From assembly GCA_021828805.1 (NCBI GenBank), contig JAJZCZ010000011.1, forward strand, positions 1 through 37,040: a stretch of 37,040 nt of DNA. The letters run 5' to 3'. A program made the translations under genes and the position numbers. The notes beneath the pieces are model-generated. The model made no database searches. It had not been told where the DNA came from and saw only the letters and a list, made by a program, of their open reading frames with translations. This stretch comes from Nitrospirota bacterium (GTDB taxonomy: Bacteria; Nitrospirota; Leptospirillia; Leptospirillales; Leptospirillaceae). Within the stretch, counting starts at the first letter, position 1; every line of letters starts with the position of its first letter. This document shows, in pieces, positions 11,206-25,717 of the stretch.

Positions 11206-11732
11206 CCTCCGGCCGGGAGACCCTGTCTGCCCCACGGAGACGGGCGCTGTCCGCCACCCGGGGAAAGGTTCTTCAGCGGCTCTTTGCCGAAGAGTTCGAA
11301 TCCCGCTCCACAACCGACCCCCTGGTCAAGGACCTTGTCGGCTGGGAAGGCGACGATCCGATGGCCAACGCCTATGCTGACCGTCTCTATGCCGAGATTC
11401 TCTTTCGAAAACCGGAGATCGATGCCGTCATTGAGGAGCTTGCGCAGGGCTGGAGCCTCTCCCGCATGACGCGGGTCGACCGGAATATTCTTCGCATCGG
11501 AATCTGCGAGATTCTCTTCGATCCCGGGATGCCCTTCCGGGTCTCGGTCCACGAAGCTCTCGACCTGGTCCACCGGTTTTCCGATCCGGAGGCGGTCTCG
11601 TTTGTCAACGGGATTCTTCACGAGGCGGGCGTTCGTCATGCCCCGGAGAAGGGGCCATACGATCCCGCGCCGCCCCGGAAAAAAGGAGCGGCGTCCTCCC
11701 GGGCTGCTTCCAAGAAAAAGGCAAATCCGTGA
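11202..11732 (+). CDS. nusB: Transcription antitermination factor NusB
   Basis: Binds boxA RNA with NusE (S10) in rRNA antitermination complexes. The all-helical core is recognisable from ATRGKVLQRLFAEEF through WSLSRMTRVDRNILRIGICEILFDP and SVHEALDLVHRFSDPEAVSFVNGILHE. At 176 residues it is longer than usual because of a basic Lys/Arg/Ala-rich tail (about residues 148-176). The ribH-nusB order is common in bacteria. The GTG start overlaps the ribH stop, and its own stop overlaps the next gene by 4 bp. Confidence 0.92.
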   Translation: MTSGRETLSAPRRRALSATRGKVLQRLFAEEFESRSTTDPLVKDLVGWEGDDPMANAYADRLYAEILFRKPEIDAVIEELAQGWSLSRMTRVDRNILRIGICEILFDPGMPFRVSVHEALDLVHRFSDPEAVSFVNGILHEAGVRHAPEKGPYDPAPPRKKGAASSRAASKKKANP

Positions 11733-12259
11733 ACCGGACTCACCGCTCTCCCTCTTCCGGCCATGGCCCCGACTTCGGTATTTCCGGGCTTGTGCTTCTC
11801 TGGGATGAGCCGGTCTTTGCGGAATCCCGACCGTTAAGGATCTTTTCCCAGAAGGTCGGGGCTCCCCTCTCGCCGGTACTCCTGTGGACAGACTTCTGGT
11901 ATTCGGGCCTTGTGACCCGGACGCTGGCCCCCTTCTGGCGGAAGGAGAAAAAAACCATCCCTCCCTCCTTTCTTTTTGTTCCGGCCGACGGGCCCTTTCC
12001 CTCAGGATTTGTCATCCTTCCCTTTGAAGAGGGGCGATCCCTGGAATGGGCGGCGCGTCTTTTTGATACCGTGGCGGGGTTGGGGATGGCCCCGGCGGTC
12101 CTCGACAGCCAGTCTCTCACCGAAGAGCTGAAGGTTCCTGTGCCCGAAGTCTCCCGTAATCTTCTCGACCGCCATGATATCCGGCTCTATGTCTCCGACC
12201 CTGCCAGGAATCCGGCCTCGATGGAGTCGTTGCCATCCCGTATGGAGTCCGCCTCGTGA
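11729..12259 (+). CDS. Uncharacterised protein between nusB and purB
   Basis: A 176-residue protein of no family I recognise. It has no signal peptide. FGISGLVLLWDEPVF, SPVLLWTDFWYSGLVTRTLAPFW and GFVILPFEEGRSLEWAARLFD suggest a mixed alpha/beta domain. Its GTG start overlaps nusB by 4 bp and its end overlaps purB by 4 bp, so it is certainly translated within the operon if the neighbours are. The FWRKEKK segment and aromatic content resemble a DUF4416-like fold (a small family found next to such genes in other deep-branching bacteria), but I cannot confirm this. Confidence 0.7.
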   Translation: MNRTHRSPSSGHGPDFGISGLVLLWDEPVFAESRPLRIFSQKVGAPLSPVLLWTDFWYSGLVTRTLAPFWRKEKKTIPPSFLFVPADGPFPSGFVILPFEEGRSLEWAARLFDTVAGLGMAPAVLDSQSLTEELKVPVPEVSRNLLDRHDIRLYVSDPARNPASMESLPSRMESAS

Positions 12260-14640: not shown

Positions 14641-14653
14641 AGAAGGGGCGACT

Positions 14654-16063
14654 GTGAACTCATCTCCAGGTTTTTTCCGGCTCTGGATCGGGCGCCTCTT
14701 CTGGGGGGCAATCATCACGATTCCTCTGGCCATCTTCGTTTTTGTCCTGCTGATGGTCGACGCTGAGCGCCGTGGTCTCGACCACTCCCGGACTGTTCTT
14801 GCAGCGGCCGAAAGCATGCTCTCCTCCGCCATGATTTCAGGCCATCCCGAGAGTGTTCCCACGGACATCACCCGACTGGGGACCGCTACGGGAACGACCA
14901 TCGTTCTCCTGAGAAATGACGGGGCCTCCGCCTACTCCGACCAGAAGGCTCTCGACCATATCAAGTCCTACACCGCCGTTCCGGACTCCTGGCGGAATAC
15001 CCTTCACTCCCCCGATGTTTTTCCCTGGCCGTCAACCACCGTTCCCGAACGGCTTGCCCATGAGGTCGACCGGATCTTTGCCGAAAAGGATGGGCACCTG
15101 GTGGCTGACCTGCATGGACGGGCCAATCCTATCGATCTCCACGGGGGGTATGCTGTCTGGACGCAGGCCATTCACAACCACACGGCCTGTGCCCGCTGCC
15201 ATGGGTTTGACAGTGAGGTTCTGGGCCACTGGGTTGTCATCTCAAGAGTTGTCCCCGCCACTCCCCATGCCGGCCGCATCCTGTGGGGATTCTGGCCACT
15301 TCCACTTATGAACCAGACGATTATCTTCGGGGGCACGGCGGGGCTTGTGATTGTCTCCCTGCTGTTTGTCTCGGGTCTTGAGAGCTTTCTGCTCAAGCGC
15401 AGCCTGCGCCCGAAATCGCCAAAGAAAAAGGCCTCCTCCGGCAAGACACCCGCGAAAGGTGAGGCCGGCTCTGAGGGGAAGGATACAACCGGCGGGGAGG
15501 CGGCAGGCCACACAGACCCCGGACTCACTGTGAGCTATGAGGGATGGCAGGAGCTCCATTCCCGCCTTGAGACTCTCGACCACTCCATCGTGGTATTGGC
15601 TGAGGAGATCCCCCGGCCAGGAGTCGTGGCGACGGGAGGCAAGGAGGAGACCGCTGTGGTTGAGGTTCAGGCCACGCTCTCCGAGATGCTCTCCGACTGG
15701 AGTGACCGTTTCGAAATGAGCCTTCAGGAAATCGAAGCCCATCCTCTGGCAAAGACTGATCCGACCCTTGGACGCTTCATCGAGAAAGCCCAGTCCTTCC
15801 GCTCTCAGGCTGTCTCCTTTGTGGATCTGGCCCAGGAGGAAAAGACTCCTGAGAGCTTTGGTGTTCTCAAGGCGCCCTTCTTCGAAGTGCTGAGTGAGGA
15901 GCAGCAGGATTGGACCGACCGTCTCCGCGCCGTTTTAGGACATCTCCACGCCGAAGTCCGGGCAATGGAGGGGGTGACGAAGACGGGTATGAAGCGCACT
16001 GAGCCTCCCCGTGAGGAGTCGGAGAAGACAAAGGCAAAGGCCCCGGAGAAGTCCTCAAAGTAA
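14654..16063 (+). CDS. Membrane protein with periplasmic c-type heme motif
   Basis: A 469-residue protein with the layout of a bacterial transmembrane sensor: TM1 at about 16-35, an external domain of about 185 residues, TM2 at about 221-242, then a 225-residue cytoplasmic part with a Lys/Pro-rich linker and two long helical stretches. The external domain has one CxxCH heme c motif (C179-A-R-C182-H183, in HTACARCHG). No HAMP, kinase, cyclase, EAL or chemotaxis-receptor signature is visible in the cytoplasmic part. The external domain may be of the DUF3365/Tll0287 heme-PAS type; this is inference from layout. The GTG start is preceded by AGAAGGGG. A redox, NO or O2 sensing role is plausible but unproven. 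Confidence 0.75.
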   Translation: MNSSPGFFRLWIGRLFWGAIITIPLAIFVFVLLMVDAERRGLDHSRTVLAAAESMLSSAMISGHPESVPTDITRLGTATGTTIVLLRNDGASAYSDQKALDHIKSYTAVPDSWRNTLHSPDVFPWPSTTVPERLAHEVDRIFAEKDGHLVADLHGRANPIDLHGGYAVWTQAIHNHTACARCHGFDSEVLGHWVVISRVVPATPHAGRILWGFWPLPLMNQTIIFGGTAGLVIVSLLFVSGLESFLLKRSLRPKSPKKKASSGKTPAKGEAGSEGKDTTGGEAAGHTDPGLTVSYEGWQELHSRLETLDHSIVVLAEEIPRPGVVATGGKEETAVVEVQATLSEMLSDWSDRFEMSLQEIEAHPLAKTDPTLGRFIEKAQSFRSQAVSFVDLAQEEKTPESFGVLKAPFFEVLSEEQQDWTDRLRAVLGHLHAEVRAMEGVTKTGMKRTEPPREESEKTKAKAPEKSSK

Positions 16064-16120
16064 GGATTGCAACGGGAAAATAAAACCCGGGGGGAGATCT
16101 CTTCTCCCGGAGAATGACGA

Positions 16121-16148
16121 GGGAACCGGATGACCGGTTCCCTTTTTT
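16121..16148 (+). terminator. Rho-independent terminator
   Basis: GGGAACCGG (16121-16129), loop ATGA, CCGGTTCCC (16134-16142), then six T. It ends the long NAD/riboflavin/purine/heme-protein transcription unit. Confidence 0.93.
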
Positions 16149-17483: not shown

Positions 17484-17560
17484 GCCCCCGTAGCTCAGGT
17501 GGACAGAGCAGAGGTTTCCTAAACCTTTGGCCGGGTGTTCAAATCACCCCGGGGGCACCA
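17484..17560 (+). tRNA. tRNA-Arg(CCU)
   Basis: A complete cloverleaf. Acceptor stem GCCCCCG/CGGGGGC; D stem GCTC/GAGC; anticodon stem GAGGT/ACCTT with loop TTCCTAA (anticodon CCT, reads AGG); T arm GGGTG-TTCAAAT-CACCC; discriminator A and an encoded CCA at 17558-17560. Confidence 0.96.
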
Positions 17561-18310: not shown

Positions 18311-19321
18311 ATGGGAAAACATGTCATCACGATGCTTCCCGGCGAGGGAACAGGGCCGGAAATTTGCGAAGCAGTCCGGAAGGTCATCGACCACAGCGGC
18401 GTGGAGATTGCCTGGGAGTACGAGGATATCGGTCTCGACTGCCTGGAAAAGCATGGAACTCTTCTTCCTGAGAAGACCATCAAGTCGATTGCAAAGAACA
18501 AGATTGCCATCAAGGGCCCCACGACCACCCCGATCGGGACTGGCCACAAAAGCGCGAACGTGACGCTTCGGAAACTCTTTGATCTCTACGCCAATGTTCG
18601 TCCGGCCAAGCTTATCCCCGTCCTCAAGCGTCCCTGGGACCAGATTGATATCCTGACTTTCCGGGAAAACACCGAGGATTCTTACGCAGCCATCGAACAC
18701 ATGGTCTCCGACGAGGTGGCTCAGTGCCTCAAGGTGATCACCTGGCCGGGATCTGTCCGGATCGCCGAGTTTGCCTTCAAGTGGGCCAAGGCCAACGGAC
18801 GCAAGAAGATTCAGTGCGTCCACAAGGCGAACATCATGAAGATGACCGACGGTATCTTCCTGGACGCCTTCCGCGAGGTGGCAAAAAAATATCCTGAGAT
18901 CGAAGCTGGTGACATCATCGTCGACAACTGCTGCATGCAGCTCGTGAGAAATCCCGCACAGTTCGATTGCCTCGTGCTCCCGAACCTCTATGGGGATATC
19001 CTCTCCGACCTCTGCGCCGGACTCGTCGGCGGACTGGGATTTGCTCCCGGCGCCAACATCGGTGACAACTGTTCCATCTTCGAGGCGGTTCACGGATCGG
19101 CTCCAAAATACGCCGGAATGAAGAAGGTCAACCCCTCTGCTGTCCTCCTGTCTGGAGTGATGATGCTTCGCTGGATCGGTGAAGAAGCCGCCGCGAGCAA
19201 GATCGAGAAGGGAATGAACAAGGTTCTGGCCGAAGCCAAGACCCTGACCTACGATGCCGGTGGTACTGCGTCGACCGACCAGTATGCCGAGGCCATCATG
19301 CGTGCTATGGACACCATCTAA
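18311..19321 (+). CDS. icd: Isocitrate dehydrogenase, catalytic subunit
   Basis: Interconverts isocitrate with 2-oxoglutarate and CO2; in reductive-TCA autotrophs the reaction runs toward CO2 fixation. A 336-residue protein of the isocitrate/isopropylmalate dehydrogenase fold: GPTTTPIGTGHKSANVTLRK (substrate Ser/Asn/Arg), FRENTEDSYAAIEH (catalytic Tyr125), catalytic Lys172 (HKANIMKM), metal Asp205, Asp229 and Asp233, and the cofactor loop FEAVHGSAPKYAG. Lys266-Tyr267 match the E. coli residues that select NADP. Thr121 stands where E. coli ICDH has its regulatory Ser113. It most resembles Thermus-type ICDH but lacks that enzyme's C-terminal domain, which appears to be the next gene. GGAGG precedes the ATG. 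Sigma-54 promoter upstream. Confidence 0.92.
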   Translation: MGKHVITMLPGEGTGPEICEAVRKVIDHSGVEIAWEYEDIGLDCLEKHGTLLPEKTIKSIAKNKIAIKGPTTTPIGTGHKSANVTLRKLFDLYANVRPAKLIPVLKRPWDQIDILTFRENTEDSYAAIEHMVSDEVAQCLKVITWPGSVRIAEFAFKWAKANGRKKIQCVHKANIMKMTDGIFLDAFREVAKKYPEIEAGDIIVDNCCMQLVRNPAQFDCLVLPNLYGDILSDLCAGLVGGLGFAPGANIGDNCSIFEAVHGSAPKYAGMKKVNPSAVLLSGVMMLRWIGEEAAASKIEKGMNKVLAEAKTLTYDAGGTASTDQYAEAIMRAMDTI

Positions 19322-19348: not shown

Positions 19349-19696
19349 ATGTTGACAAAAGCAACGACCGGTCGCGCAAAGCGGCCTTCAAAGCCCATTA
19401 CCCTCGTGGGTGTTGATGTTTATATCATCACTGAAAATGGTATTCCCCAGTTTGACGACTACGGCGCCTTCAAGATCGAGTTCATCTCTAACCGTGGCAC
19501 CAAGGTGTGGCCGGGTTATGTGAGCGAAGATCTCATGCTGGTCAACTGGTATCGTTGCCGCTTCATGGCGACCAAGACAGTGACCGATGCGGATGTGGAT
19601 ACCTTCCTGGCTGCCCTGACAAAGAAGTGGAAGTGGTCTGCAGCCCAGAAGCTCTGGAACTACGGAGACGAAGCAGGATTCAGCAAGGCCTACTAG
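19349..19696 (+). CDS. Stand-alone C-terminal domain of Thermus-type isocitrate dehydrogenase
   Basis: A 115-residue soluble protein, 27 bp after icd, with AAGGAG before its ATG. VGVDVYIITENGIPQ, FKIEFISNRGTKVWP, WYRCRFMATK and EAGFSKAY line up, in order and spacing, with the C-terminal domain that I recall of Thermus thermophilus ICDH (VGVDVFVETN, KMISNRGTQVYP, HYRCRF, EPGFTKA). There the domain is fused to the enzyme and makes inter-subunit contacts. Here it is a separate gene with its own ribosome site, not a frameshift product. It is probably a second subunit of the dehydrogenase. The homology is from memory and untested. Confidence 0.72.
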   Translation: MLTKATTGRAKRPSKPITLVGVDVYIITENGIPQFDDYGAFKIEFISNRGTKVWPGYVSEDLMLVNWYRCRFMATKTVTDADVDTFLAALTKKWKWSAAQKLWNYGDEAGFSKAY

Positions 19697-19797: not shown

Positions 19798-21222
19798 TCA
19801 GGGCTCTTCGTCTGCCCCGCCCTTCTCTTCTTCCTCCTGGTCGGCTTTCAGGCGGCGGTCAAGAGCCCAGCGGCTGATGCCAAGTGCCTGGGCGGCCCGG
19901 GTCTTGTTTCCTCCCGAGCGGGCGAGAATATCGGCAATCAGTCGGCGCTCGATGCCATCGAGCGTGTCCGCTCCGATCCGGAATGGGAGGAGAAGACTGC
20001 TGGGATCGCTGTCTTCTGTCGGGGCCACGGGAAGAGGCTCAAAGCCGGAAGCGCGGAGGTCTGTCGGAAAGTGGCCCGGCTCGAGTTGGGTTCCGGAGCA
20101 GAAGAGGACGGCCCTCTCCACCAGGTTTGAGAGCTCCCGGATATTTCCGGGAAAGGAGTAGCTCTTTAAAAGCTTTTGGGCGGACGGAGAGATGCGAAGG
20201 ATCTTCTTTCGGAAGGTCTGTGCTGACAGGTGAAGGAAGCGCTCGGCCAGGGGAACAATATCGCCCACCCGGTCCCGAAGGGGGGGGATGGCGAGGGTCA
20301 CGACATTCAGGCGGTAGAAAAGATCCTCCCGAAACCGCCCTTCCTTGACTGCAACACGGAGATCGCGGTGGGTGGCCGCCATGAACCTGACATTGATGGG
20401 GAAGGGGGCGCCTCCACCGACGCGCCGGATGGTGCGTTCCTCGATGACCCGGAGAAGTTTGGCCTGAAGGGGCAGGGGAAGGTCACCAATCTCGTCGAGA
20501 AGGACCGTTCCTCCTTCGGCCAGCTCCACGAGGCCGATACGCCGTCCGGTGGCCCCGGTAAAGGAGCCCTTTTCAAAGCCGAAGAGCTCGCTTTCAAAGA
20601 GCTCGGAGGGGATGGCGGGGCAGTCCACTTCGATGAAGGGGCGGTCTCCGGAGGGGCCATTGTAATGGAGAACCTTGGCGACATATTCCTTTCCGGTTCC
20701 GGTCTCCCCCTGAAGAAGGACCGTCACCCGGTCATTTTCGACAAGTCCCGCTACCTGATCCCGCAAGGTCGCTCCTGCCGGGCTATCTGCAATCATGCGG
20801 TCGAGAGAGTAGCGACCGGACTGCCGGCTTGTCCAGTAGCGGGCCTCCCGGGAGAGCGCGAGAAAGCGGACAGCATTCGAGACGGAAAGAAAAAGCTCAT
20901 CCATGTCGATATTTTTCGAGACGAAGTCGAAGGCCCCGAGGCGCATCGCCTCCACCGCGTCCTTGACGGTCCCCCGGGCGGTGAGGAGGATGACGGGGAT
21001 ATCGAGGTCGGAGGAGCGGATTTCTCGAAGGAGATCAAGCCCCGACATTCCCGGCATGACGATATCCAGGAGAAGAATGTCGGGAGGGGCTGTCCGGAGA
21101 GCCTTCAGACCCTCTTCTGCGGAGGTGGCGGTCTCGACGGTGTAGCCCCGCTCGGAGAGGCGAAGGGCGAAGGCCTCCCGGATCAGAGGTTCGTCTTCCA
21201 CCAAAAGAATGTGTGAACTCAT
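19798..21222 (-). CDS. NtrC-family sigma-54-dependent response regulator
   Basis: A 474-residue activator with three domains. The receiver (1-120) has acidic pocket D10/E11 and phosphoacceptor D53 (LLLDIVMPG). The AAA+ domain (about 140-375) has Walker A GETGTGKE (172-179), the sigma-54 loop GSFTGA (219-224; canonical GAFTGA with Ala to Ser) and Walker [12 protein letters not shown] (about 237-246). A Fis-type helix-turn-helix ([22 protein letters not shown]) lies near the C-terminus. It binds enhancers and opens sigma-54 holoenzyme complexes with ATP. Its ATG overlaps the histidine-kinase stop by 4 bp. Both sigma-54 promoters in this window are its likely targets, including that of its own operon. 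Confidence 0.95.
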
Positions 21223-23279
21223 GGAGTCTCCTGTTCCTGTCTCAGGGGAAGCCAGACTGTGGCTTTCACCCCTCCTTCCCCGGGGCTGTCGATCAGCATG
21301 TGTCCCCGATGGCGGTCGACGATGTCACGGCAGATCGTGAGTCCCAGCCCCACACCCTTGGCCTTGCCGTGGGTGAAGAAGGGCTCATTGATACGTTTGA
21401 GAAAGGCCGGAGGAATCCCGGGCCCGGTGTCTGTGAGCGAGACGCACACCCCTTCTCCTGCGGGCCGGTTTTCCCGGGCGAGATGGATGGTGAGGGATCC
21501 TCCTCCAGCGGACATGGCGTCGAGGGCATTCATGGCAAGATTGAGAAAGACCTGCTGCAAAGGACCCCGGGCCCCTTCCACGGAAGGAAGGGCGCTCTCC
21601 TGGGTGATCCGGACGGAGACCTGTCGCTTCTTGAAGGTTTCGGAGAGGAGGGACTGTGTGTCCTGGATGAGTTCATCGAGGGAGATCTCGGAGAAGCTGA
21701 AGCTTCTTGGCTTGAGTTGGGAAAGATGAGACTCAAGAAGCTCATCGATTCTTCTGGCCTCCCGGGTGATGAGCGTGGCCTGGCGGCGAAGGGTCTCCGG
21801 AAGATCCCGGCTTTGCCCCATGTGGTCGGCAAGGCTTCCGATCCCGATCAGGGGGTTCCGGATTTCGTGGAGCAGGCCTCCGGCAAGCTGGCCCACCAGG
21901 CGGATCTGCTCGGTCTGCCGGAGGGCCTCGAGAAGACGCTCACGCTCCGAGAGATCGGTCAGGATGGCGAGAAAATACCGGATGGTACCGTCGGGATCCA
22001 TCACGGGGCTGATATTTTCCCAGACGAGACATTCTGTCTTGTCCCGCCGCCGGTTGATGAATCGTCCGGTAAAGGGTTTGCCGGCGAGAAGGTTTTGCCA
22101 GAGGGTGTCATAGAACTCCGGGGGCTGGCGGCCGGATGAAAGAATTCTCGGGGTGCGTCCGATCGCCTCCTGCCGGCTGATTCCCGACATCCGTTCCATC
22201 GCGGGGTTCCATTCGAGGATCATTCCCCGGGTATCGGTGAGGATCACCCCGTCCTGGAGCTGGGCAAAGAGTCTTTTATAAAGAGAGAGCTGTGTTTCCT
22301 CCCTTTTCCAGCGTTCAAGCAGGGTCGCGAAGGTATTGGCGACCGTCTCAAGAAAGGCGATCTCGGTCGGATCAAAGTGCCGGACGCTGACGGTATGCGC
22401 GCTCATCGCTCCCAGAACCTGGTTCTGGAACATCATGGGGACACTCACCCCCGAGCGGACGTTGTGTTCGGAGAGGAGCTTGGAAGGGGAAAAGCGCTTT
22501 TCGGTGAGAAGGTCCTCCACGATGACTGCCGTCTTCTGTCGGATTGCAAATCCCGCCTGAGAGTGGATTCCTCCTTCCTGGACATAGCTTCCGACAAGTC
22601 CGGATCGCCAGCCGACTCCGGCCATCAGGTGGAGCAGGGGATCGGAGTCTCCCGGAATCAGGATCTTGCAGAACTCCACGTCAAGGGCATGGGCGGTTTC
22701 GCGGGCGGCTACATCAGCGATTTCGGTGATCTCCGCCCCTTTGACGGCGAGGTGGGCGATTCGGCCGAGGACTTCCTGATAACGTCCAAAGGCCAGAGTT
22801 TCCCGTGCCAGAACCTCAAGATCGGTCATGTCCTGAACATGGATGAGGGCCTGATCCTTACCCCCCTCCATGGAGGGGAGCCGGATGGTCTGGCAGTCGA
22901 CAATACGCGGCTCCCCCTTGGGGGTTCGGGCGGCAATCTTGCGACGGAGACCGGTGTTACCGGCTAAGACCTCCCGGGCCTGGTCCTTCAGGAGAGACTC
23001 GAGGGAGCGAGAACCTGTCGAGGAATTGACCGAAAGCCCTTTAAGAATTCTTTCGCACCCGGGAGAGGCAAAGTGAACCGATCCCTTGTGGTCAATCAGG
23101 CAGAACCCTCCCTCTCCCTCCTCTTCCGGATCCCGAGAGAGGATCCGTTCGAGGGGAATCGTAAAGGAGAGTGTCCCGAGCGTATCTTTTCTGGGTGCTT
23201 TCACATCAGACCTCATTTTTTCCTGCTGAGAGGGGGGGAGGAAGGTAAGAGCCCCTCCTCCCTTTCGGATACGGCTCAT
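21219..23279 (-). CDS. Soluble PAS-GAF-PAS sensor histidine kinase
   Basis: A 686-residue kinase with no membrane segment, so the stimulus is cytoplasmic. Order: PAS-like domain (about 55-150), GAF (about 190-325), PAS (about 335-450, with GVILTDTRGMILEWNPAMERMSG), HisKA with phospho-His about 471 (GGLLHEIRNPL), and HATPase_c with N box NLAMNALDAM, G1 DTGPGIP and G2 KGVGLGL. The chosen ATG overlaps the dabA stop by 4 bp (ATGA), mirroring the other junctions in the operon; a later ATG at 23216 with a weak AGG is possible, and an earlier one at 23330 lies inside dabA. It probably phosphorylates the adjacent NtrC-type regulator. The ligand is unknown; an inorganic-carbon-related signal is inferred from the operon. 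Confidence 0.9.
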   Translation of the reverse strand: MSRIRKGGGALTFLPPSQQEKMRSDVKAPRKDTLGTLSFTIPLERILSRDPEEEGEGGFCLIDHKGSVHFASPGCERILKGLSVNSSTGSRSLESLLKDQAREVLAGNTGLRRKIAARTPKGEPRIVDCQTIRLPSMEGGKDQALIHVQDMTDLEVLARETLAFGRYQEVLGRIAHLAVKGAEITEIADVAARETAHALDVEFCKILIPGDSDPLLHLMAGVGWRSGLVGSYVQEGGIHSQAGFAIRQKTAVIVEDLLTEKRFSPSKLLSEHNVRSGVSVPMMFQNQVLGAMSAHTVSVRHFDPTEIAFLETVANTFATLLERWKREETQLSLYKRLFAQLQDGVILTDTRGMILEWNPAMERMSGISRQEAIGRTPRILSSGRQPPEFYDTLWQNLLAGKPFTGRFINRRRDKTECLVWENISPVMDPDGTIRYFLAILTDLSERERLLEALRQTEQIRLVGQLAGGLLHEIRNPLIGIGSLADHMGQSRDLPETLRRQATLITREARRIDELLESHLSQLKPRSFSFSEISLDELIQDTQSLLSETFKKRQVSVRITQESALPSVEGARGPLQQVFLNLAMNALDAMSAGGGSLTIHLARENRPAGEGVCVSLTDTGPGIPPAFLKRINEPFFTHGKAKGVGLGLTICRDIVDRHRGHMLIDSPGEGGVKATVWLPLRQEQETP

Positions 23280-25717
23280 TGTAACGGCTCGGGAAGAGAT
23301 CCTGGAACCAGACGATAAAGAAGGATCCATCCCCCCTTCACAAGATTGGTGAGGAGCGTGTGGCGCCCAACGATCCGGGTGATGGCATCGGCGGGTGCGG
23401 CCACAAGAACATGGAGACGCAGGGGCTCATGAATGAACTTCTCCCCGTCGTGGAGGGACTGGAGCGCCAGTCCCGTCCGAAGGTCTCCTCCGTTCCCTTC
23501 AAGGACTCCCACCGCCCCTCCGACCACATTATGCAGGACTTTGTTTCCGCTGCCGAAGTGGGCGTTATCAACCACTGATCCGTAGTATTGCATGTTAATC
23601 CAGTGTCCCACCACCAGGGGGCCGGTCAGGATCAGCTCAAGGGAGGCAAAGTCGGGATCGGTTTGCCAGTCATAGTCATGGAGAAAGGCCCGTCCTTGAA
23701 GATCGATTCCCCGGGTAAGGCTGCGGGGAGCGACGATGAAAGAGGCATTTCCGGCCAGGGCCCATTCCGGGCGTACCTCCGACCAGCTTTTCGCCTTCTC
23801 TGAAAAAAGATCAAGAAGTCCCGTGCTGCTCTCTTTTCCTGCGCCCATGTTAAAGCGGAGGATACGCTCCTGTCTCGCCACCTCTCCAGCCTTTTTCAGG
23901 TCCCGTTCGAGGCGGGAGAGATCTTCCCGGTGGCTCGCAGGAAGGCGGTCGGTTTCGAAGAAGGTGACGCGGTCGGTGACGGTATCGTGAAGCGCCGGGA
24001 CGAAATACGTTGTCTTGGGGATGGTGATTCCCAGGCCAACGAGGCTTTCCCGGGTCATCTGGTCGTTTAACAGGGCTGCCGCAATGCGGGCGCTGGCTTC
24101 ACCGCTCTGTCCCGCGCAGGCTCCGCAGTCGAGGGCGCTGGCCTGGGGGTTGTTGACGGTGGTCGATCCGTGCCCGACAAGAAGAACAATACGGGGAAAG
24201 CGGTCGGTGATTCCCATATTTTTTAACACCGACAGGGCAACACGGGGGCGATCCTCCTGGGGGAGGCCCTTTCCCTCCTCGAAAAAGTCGAGATCCGGAG
24301 CCAGAAGGGAGCTTTCTTCCCGCTGAAGTCCGCGATGCCGGGGCGGGCCATTTTCTATTCCGAGCCCCAGGGCGCCGGCCAGCAGCTTTCCGGCTGAAAG
24401 AATACCGGCGGCCTCCACAAAGGAGAAGGTGGAAGATGCCGAGCTTTTGAAGATCTTCCAGGTCTTGTCGAGTCCAAGACGAACCTCACGCTTTCTCTCC
24501 ATGTCAACGGGAGAGGTCGTCGCGTGGGAGTGTGGACGCTCCTCAATATCATAGGCCGGAGAGAACAGGACGGGAAGGTGGGCGAACGACCCGTTTGTTC
24601 CAATGGAGCTCACCGCGGCCGGGATGCCGAAAAATCCCGCGAACCCTCCGGTGTCGACATCGGGAGCCACGGATTCCAGGGCGCGACGGAAGACCTCGGA
24701 CCGGACATCGATGCAGAAGATTGCCCGGGCCCGGGCGGTGGTTTCCGAAGAGTGAGTCGCGGCCTTGGAGAGACGTGAGAAGAGGGGCGCCCGGTATCCA
24801 GCCTCAAAGGCGTACTGGAGCACGCGATCAATTTCCTGTTCCCGGTCAAACTTCTCCTCTCTCGCCTTGCGATTTTTGAGATAGCTCTCAACTTGCTCCT
24901 CCCGGAGCTCCTTGAGGGCTTCTCCGGCGAAGGAGGTATAGAGAATGTATTCCCAGGCCATGCGGATGGCGAGAATATCCTCCATCGAATTGTCATTTTC
25001 TCCCCGGAGCTCCGCCTGCCAGAGGCGATATCGAGACCATGCGGCCCATCCCCCGACGGACAGGAGAGCGGCGTGGAGCCGGTCCTCCTCAAGATCCGGG
25101 GGAAGAGGAATCACGTCGACCGCTTTCTGGATCATTGCGGCAGGATTGTCTGGAAGACCGGCGATGATGTCCTTTGCCTTTCGTATCCCCAGAAAGAGCG
25201 GACCCCGGTCGATGAGGGTCTGGGCGTGCCAGGCACTATAGAGCGGAAGGGACTTCCACGGGTTTTTCCAGAGGGCCTGCCCCATATCGAACCAGGAGGC
25301 CAGAACCGGTGTGATGCGATCGATGACGAGGGTCTCCCAGGGAGCCCCGTCGAGCCGGCTCCGAATCGGAGGAATCAGAAGGGGGGCGGGAGGAATCTGG
25401 AGAGCTGGGTGTTCGAGCTCCCAGAGAACGTCGCTGGCCTTCAGAGAGCTTTTCAGATCGGCAATGGCGCTCTCGATGTGAGACCGGGTGATGCGGCCGG
25501 AGCGGATCTGGTCCTGGAAGTAGTCGCGTGACATGGAAAGCCCGGATCCAAGAATCCGCCGCAGCCTCCGGTCAACCTCCTCCATGCGTTCATCCACCAT
25601 CCCGAAATAAGGGCTGACGGCGACAAAGTGCTTGAGAGGCCAGAGCGGGGCGATCCGTTGGCAGGAGCGCTTGACAAGCTCGGAGAGAGACGGCTGGAGG
25701 AGTGAGGTCGTCGTCAT
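23276..25717 (-). CDS. dabA: DabA, beta-carbonic-anhydrase-like subunit of the DAB inorganic carbon transporter
   Basis: An 813-residue DUF2309/UPF0753 protein. With DabB it forms a membrane-associated complex that converts CO2 to bicarbonate vectorially, raising cytoplasmic inorganic carbon. Zinc and catalytic residues expected for DabA are present: C335 and D337 (FCIDVRSE), H516 (VGHGSTTVNN) and C531 (SALDCGACAG); the known Halothiobacillus set is Cys, Asp, His, Cys with near-identical spacing. The N-terminal block APLWPLKHFVAVSPYFGM is typical. A longer open frame extends upstream, but this ATG starts the conserved domain and overlaps the dabB stop by 4 bp (ATGA). Confidence 0.93.
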   Translation of the reverse strand: MTTTSLLQPSLSELVKRSCQRIAPLWPLKHFVAVSPYFGMVDERMEEVDRRLRRILGSGLSMSRDYFQDQIRSGRITRSHIESAIADLKSSLKASDVLWELEHPALQIPPAPLLIPPIRSRLDGAPWETLVIDRITPVLASWFDMGQALWKNPWKSLPLYSAWHAQTLIDRGPLFLGIRKAKDIIAGLPDNPAAMIQKAVDVIPLPPDLEEDRLHAALLSVGGWAAWSRYRLWQAELRGENDNSMEDILAIRMAWEYILYTSFAGEALKELREEQVESYLKNRKAREEKFDREQEIDRVLQYAFEAGYRAPLFSRLSKAATHSSETTARARAIFCIDVRSEVFRRALESVAPDVDTGGFAGFFGIPAAVSSIGTNGSFAHLPVLFSPAYDIEERPHSHATTSPVDMERKREVRLGLDKTWKIFKSSASSTFSFVEAAGILSAGKLLAGALGLGIENGPPRHRGLQREESSLLAPDLDFFEEGKGLPQEDRPRVALSVLKNMGITDRFPRIVLLVGHGSTTVNNPQASALDCGACAGQSGEASARIAAALLNDQMTRESLVGLGITIPKTTYFVPALHDTVTDRVTFFETDRLPASHREDLSRLERDLKKAGEVARQERILRFNMGAGKESSTGLLDLFSEKAKSWSEVRPEWALAGNASFIVAPRSLTRGIDLQGRAFLHDYDWQTDPDFASLELILTGPLVVGHWINMQYYGSVVDNAHFGSGNKVLHNVVGGAVGVLEGNGGDLRTGLALQSLHDGEKFIHEPLRLHVLVAAPADAITRIVGRHTLLTNLVKGGWILLYRLVPGSLPEPLQ

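Follow-up and report, generated by a model that had tools for sequence, protein, structure and literature searches.

A predicted c-heme Cache-type membrane sensor with a tethered four-helix bundle, encoded behind purS in the Leptospirillaceae

The DNA considered here is a stretch of 37,040 nucleotides from a Nitrospirota bacterium of the Leptospirillaceae (contig JAJZCZ010000011.1), referred to as the window. It contains the gene of a 469-residue protein, present as a single copy in its genome, whose features are collected in Table 1. The GTG start is served by a strong ribosome-binding site (agaagggg-cgact-GTG), and the purine-rich run upstream of the start is retained in same-genus relatives. 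The surrounding genes follow a conserved order, namely NAD synthase, ribBA, ribH, nusB, a gene for a 176-residue protein, purB, purC, purS, the sensor gene and an asparaginase-type gene. This order was derived from 12 + 5 neighbourhood stretches, some of them from one and the same genome; the blocks are partial at contig ends, a larger gap precedes purB in one genome (G015), and the reverse-strand query reading frames of the comparison are shadows of ribH, purC/purS and the asparaginase gene. In every relative checked, the sensor gene sits directly downstream of purS. In the window, 60 nt devoid of promoter-like or terminator-like sites separate the purS stop from the GTG. In L013, L014 and L017, three relatives belonging to other genera, the sensor gene begins within purS, with 4 nt shared at its stop codon, and the gap measures 0-3 nt in L016 and L018. 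The strong hairpin located downstream of the gene is the best of five terminator-like sites in the scanned region, where 3.1 would be expected by chance. The signal-free gap, the overlaps with purS and this hairpin support the proposal, made in an initial annotation of the locus, that the gene is co-transcribed behind nucleotide and cofactor genes; the coupling to purS alone implies no role in purine synthesis.

The protein has been found, whole or as fragments at contig ends, in 19 of the 21 family genomes searched, the two genomes without it (G008 and G019) being 71% and 80% complete. Outside the family, the search of 40 further genomes of the phylum returned one weak match, a histidine kinase that combines HAMP with a heme-Cache sensor, and no relatives were found among plasmids and viral contigs. 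Synteny and tight coupling to purS suggest a maintained core gene. The host family is probably made up of iron-oxidising acidophiles (the Leptospirillum family).

Other features of the window can be mentioned here. The 176-residue protein encoded between nusB and purB (11729-12259, + strand) has no Pfam match and its position is kept across the family. A tRNA gene detected with Rfam (17484-17557, +) is followed by a reading frame resembling isocitrate/isopropylmalate dehydrogenases (18311-19321, +) and by a 115-residue reading frame (19349-19696, +) resembling, on visual inspection, a C-terminal extension; the dehydrogenase is possibly split. An NtrC-type response regulator and a PAS/GAF histidine kinase form a pair 3.7 kb downstream (19798-23330, - strand), outside the conserved synteny block.

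Table 1. Features of the sensor gene and its product, in positions of the window.
Feature	Coordinates	Strand	Basis
Shine-Dalgarno-like purine run upstream of the GTG start	14641..14648	+	sequence (agaagggg-cgact-GTG); relatives
Sensor gene, 469 aa, GTG start	14654..16063	+	ORF call
TM helix 1, about residues 15-36	14696..14761	+	hydropathy maximum 2.6
Periplasmic sCache_heme / Mcp40H-20-like sensor domain, residues 37-200	14762..15253	+	hhalign to Nitrospirota heme-Cache sensors
Met60 codon, predicted distal heme ligand	14831..14833	+	invariance; alignment to GSU0935 Met60
Putative CARCH c-heme attachment motif, residues 179-183 (C179, C182, H183)	15188..15202	+	sequence; invariance
Conserved pre-TM2 segment, [LV]WG[FI][WM]P[LF]xxxNQ-type motif	15254..15316	+	50% identity even in distant members
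TM helix 2, residues 222-246	15317..15391	+	hydropathy; charged flank
Hydrophilic linker, probably disordered, residues 247-289	15392..15520	+	identity, length, composition
Cytoplasmic four-helix-bundle domain without known family (~155 residues; 290-445)	15521..15988	+	AF2; conservation
Intrinsic terminator-like hairpin downstream of the sensor gene	16119..16144	+	11-pair stem + T-run

The protein had been described as an external domain with a single CARCH motif held between two membrane helices, and this topology is borne out by the reading frame, hydropathy (membrane segments at about 14-36 and 221-246) and charged flanks. The 16 residues that follow the second helix comprise seven lysines or arginines and no aspartate or glutamate; the K/R-rich flanks assign the N-terminus and the 223 C-terminal residues to the cytoplasm, and the CARCH domain to the outside of the membrane. 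C179 and C182 of the motif are the only cysteines of the protein. Together with M60 and H183 they are kept without exception in the 18 family members aligned, even at the 26-33% identity found with members of other genera. The motif is framed by residues of the form N-x3-C-x2-CHG-x-D-x3-LG, and the conserved segment before TM2 occupies the place where canonical relatives pass from the last strand into this helix. The full-length AF2 model, looked at for a Cache fold with a heme helix between strands 3 and 4, is too weak for this purpose (pLDDT 51.8).

From the perspective of homology, a profile of the family sensor domains was compared by hhalign with a profile of heme-Cache sensors from Nitrospirota. 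The two profiles align with a probability of 98.5% (E 1.8e-15), and still with 93.7% (E 1.9e-7) when TM1 and the heme segment are left out; in the controls, the highest probability among 100 column shuffles was 2.1%, and that of the reversed profile was 0.2%. The Nitrospirota profile matches in turn the PDB entries 3B42 (E 8.7e-21) and 3B47 (E 2.7e-18). M60 of the window protein aligns with the invariant Met of the Nitrospirota profile, and the latter with position 26 of the 3B42 chain, which corresponds to Met60 of GSU0935 on the numbering that puts the heme-motif cysteine C140 at chain position 106. In GSU0935 this residue is the distal heme ligand (PMC8396549). Profile comparison thus argues strongly for the external domain being a divergent homologue of the sCache_heme / Mcp40H-20 c-heme Cache sensors. 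The window protein has no match at the curated Pfam cut-offs of PF11845 or PF21563, and two relatives match PF21563 under its cut-off, at E 0.026 or weaker; for this reason the domain is termed a divergent homologue and not a member of these curated families. The kinship with heme-PAS and DUF3365 (Tll0287) domains put forward in the initial annotation therefore holds at the superfamily level, where profile homology supports it, and does not extend to the cut-offs of PF11845 and PF21563.

A covalently bound heme is predicted at the CARCH motif. Heme attachment is not demonstrable from sequence, and the motif might have another use, such as binding a metal or forming a redox-active disulfide, or the product might be a structural membrane protein. 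Such readings appear highly improbable, given that c-heme domains with relatives of solved structure have the same motif, flanks and Met ligand, and that the cytochrome c maturation protein ResB is encoded in the genome.

Among the known systems, the Geobacter chemoreceptors GSU0935 and GSU0582 (PDB 3B42 and 3B47; PF21563, Mcp40H-20_sensor) have in common with the window protein an extracytoplasmic c-heme domain between two TM helices, a CXXCH near the end of the domain and the conserved distal Met (Met60). Apart from its place under the PF21563 cut-off, the window protein differs from them in an insertion of ~60 residues ahead of the heme segment, in the WG[FI][WM]P segment before TM2, and in the absence of both HAMP and MCP domains. 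The sCache_heme family (DUF3365/Tll0287, PF11845), in which a 2026 preprint groups the Mcp40H-20-type domains, likewise shows a Cache-type domain with an inserted CXXCH segment (PMC12889525). Unlike Tll0287, a stand-alone single domain with Cys/His axial ligation in which Cys is the distal ligand, the window protein has no cysteine outside CXXCH and possesses two TM helices and a cytoplasmic domain. Moreover, while sCache_heme proteins have been reported as stand-alone or HAMP-only forms or with HK, MCP or GGDEF/EAL outputs (PMC12889525), the window protein carries a tethered four-helix bundle. A paralogue in the same genome (L059; G000:C25:12000-20000, ORF on the - strand), a heme-Cache-HAMP-MCP chemoreceptor lying under the PF21563 cut-off, has a homologous heme sensor with the invariant Met, the CXXCH and a comparable insertion, but its output is the canonical one, made up of HAMP (E 4.7e-9) and MCPsignal (E 5.2e-48). 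In a tree of sensor domains, whose long branches make the deeper placement unsure, the domains of the family group in a single clade that excludes the sensor of its heme-Cache-HAMP-MCP, so that the sensor gene is seemingly no recent copy of the chemoreceptor gene.

The cytoplasmic part is composed of a linker and a C-terminal domain. Across the family the linker is 27-51 residues long and consists of 82-93% polar or small residues; being polar and variable in both sequence and length, it is likely disordered. Its identity in close, mid and far relatives is 48, 23 and 11%, compared with 82, 61 and 26% for the C-terminal domain, and the first of these pairs (82% against 48%) indicates, at the level of sequence, that the C-terminal domain is under constraint. 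The invariant residues of the domain include R304, P320, G323, W349, D351, E354, W420, H432, E434 and R436, and the AF2 model, built from six input sequences, is a four-helix bundle (pLDDT 75.7, pTM 0.70).

Searches with the whole protein in Pfam, NCBIfam and PDB sequences gave no significant match. By Pfam and NCBIfam, HAMP, kinase, cyclase, MCP and GGDEF/EAL domains are absent from the window protein, and none is convincing in 18 relatives; the same Pfam library detects HAMP and MCPsignal in the paralogue and HAMP in a HAMP-only protein (L048). No convincing homologue of the C-terminal domain was found outside the family among 246 genomes of the phylum, and Foldseek searches of the bundle against PDB and BFVD returned no significant match, only non-specific helical bundles with E of at least 0.05. 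These results agree with the original description of a cytoplasmic part, ~223 residues long in the present analysis, without recognisable output; a known enzyme domain, which would have contradicted that description, was looked for and none was found. In its geometry the bundle is similar to generic ones, FAT domains among them, at TM-scores of about 0.53-0.66 and E >0.2, and this similarity counts as no more than a lead. Some candidates were discarded: two faint matches of the C-terminal domain in another family (E about 0.004) span 38-43 residues and lie in unrelated short helical reading frames; weak Pfam matches to ZapB, SARAH and others resemble coiled-coil noise; LAEEIPRPG and LHAEVR, picked by eye as histidine-kinase or HPt motifs, have the wrong spacing and no profile support.

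Alternatively, the C-terminal domain could be the degenerate form of an MCP domain, of HAMP or of the dimerisation domain of a histidine kinase, and could associate with a chemoreceptor array or kinase already in place. Its helical nature might suggest this, as might the complete heme MCP, with its related sensor, encoded in the same genome. This is quite improbable. In fact, hhalign to MCP cytoplasmic parts gives 0.1-0.9% (0.1% for the C-terminal domain, 0.4% for TM2, linker and C-terminal domain together), values that led us to discard a degenerate output of MCP or HAMP type; furthermore, none of the 18 members has a convincing Pfam match, and the sensor belongs to its own clade, apart from the MCP sensors of the family.

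The explanation that we consider the probable one, by a modest measure, is that of a periplasmic redox or NO heme sensor signalling through protein contacts of the tethered bundle, with a non-enzymatic output. The heme would be attached to Cys179 and Cys182, with His183 as axial ligand and Met60 as the other in the reduced state. In GSU0935 and GSU0582 oxidation is thought to free the distal Met, which CO or NO can replace (PMC8396549), and the presence of H183 and M60 makes heme chemistry of this type likely in the window protein. In line with the proposal for the Geobacter receptors, Met60 would then be displaced upon oxidation or by a ligand, NO for instance, and the N-terminal helix that mediates dimerisation would be rearranged; the change in dimerisation or clustering would show the cytoplasmic bundle to a partner protein or hide it. 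In the known relatives the signal passes via a helix into HAMP, whereas the window protein has a Pro/Trp-rich segment before TM2 and a flexible linker after it. These two elements make a rod-like transmission to the bundle unlikely, which in turn favours control through dimerisation or clustering and a bundle that acts as a module for binding proteins. We infer the signal, the dimerisation and the protein-contact output; signalling by protein contacts would be the most economical reading of a tethered bundle modelled with four helices and no enzymatic character. On the other hand, the linker and the non-canonical segment before TM2 break the known helix path, and transmembrane signalling is not assured; no partner protein came to light, and the neighbouring genes serve purine and riboflavin biosynthesis rather than signalling.

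The Geobacter domains have midpoint potentials of -156 and -251 mV (PMC8396549). Unless the window protein has a much higher potential, its heme would stay oxidised at all times in the periplasm of an iron-oxidising host. If the host does oxidise iron at low pH, redox sensing would need a potential far above that of the Geobacter domains. The likelier options are then a high-potential His/Met heme, or NO or some other ligand as the signal. For the membrane-bound and signalling members of sCache_heme, NO sensing has been proposed, and redox roles for the stand-alone ones (PMC12889525).

The main rival reading sees in the protein a membrane-anchored c-type cytochrome on a heme-Cache fold, engaged in electron transfer or in the handling or scavenging of NO or peroxide, whose bundle merely anchors or assembles it without any signalling. 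It fits with stand-alone sCache_heme proteins being common and redox-protein-like (PMC12889525), with the window protein having neither an output domain nor helical coupling, and with the respiration of the likely host lineage via c-type cytochromes (PMC5772234). However, the predicted distal ligand corresponds to the Met of the sensor subgroup and not to the Cys of Tll0287, two TM helices with a conserved cytoplasmic domain form a receptor architecture, and the synteny block holds no linked cytochrome or oxidase gene. We rate the cytochrome as unlikely, though to be kept in mind.

The family status of c-heme Cache sensors is recent, and the signalling members reported to date all terminate in HAMP or in a known output module. 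What is known here is the type of heme-Cache sensor; what is new is the lineage-specific tethered bundle in place of the usual output. Returning to the protein-contact sensor, it may tentatively be extended to a new class of periplasmic heme receptors, in which the heme state would control clustering and the tethered bundle would act as a lineage-specific adaptor recruiting or releasing a cytoplasmic partner, possibly linked to purines through the purS operon; this extension is doubtful at present. A tethered helical bundle that has replaced the usual output in a conserved protein of this family would offer another route by which a periplasmic redox or NO signal crosses the membrane. The C-terminal domain represents a defined bait for the search of partners.

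Related sensors occur in the phylum on HAMP-MCP, HAMP-HisKA and HAMP-only proteins. Matches to the L059-type heme MCP are present in nearly all genomes of the family, in which heme-based taxis probably takes place. Three Nitrospirota proteins (L048, L050 and L057) combine a heme-Cache domain and two TM helices with HAMP alone as output, an architecture that resembles the P. azotoformans protein of PMC12889525.
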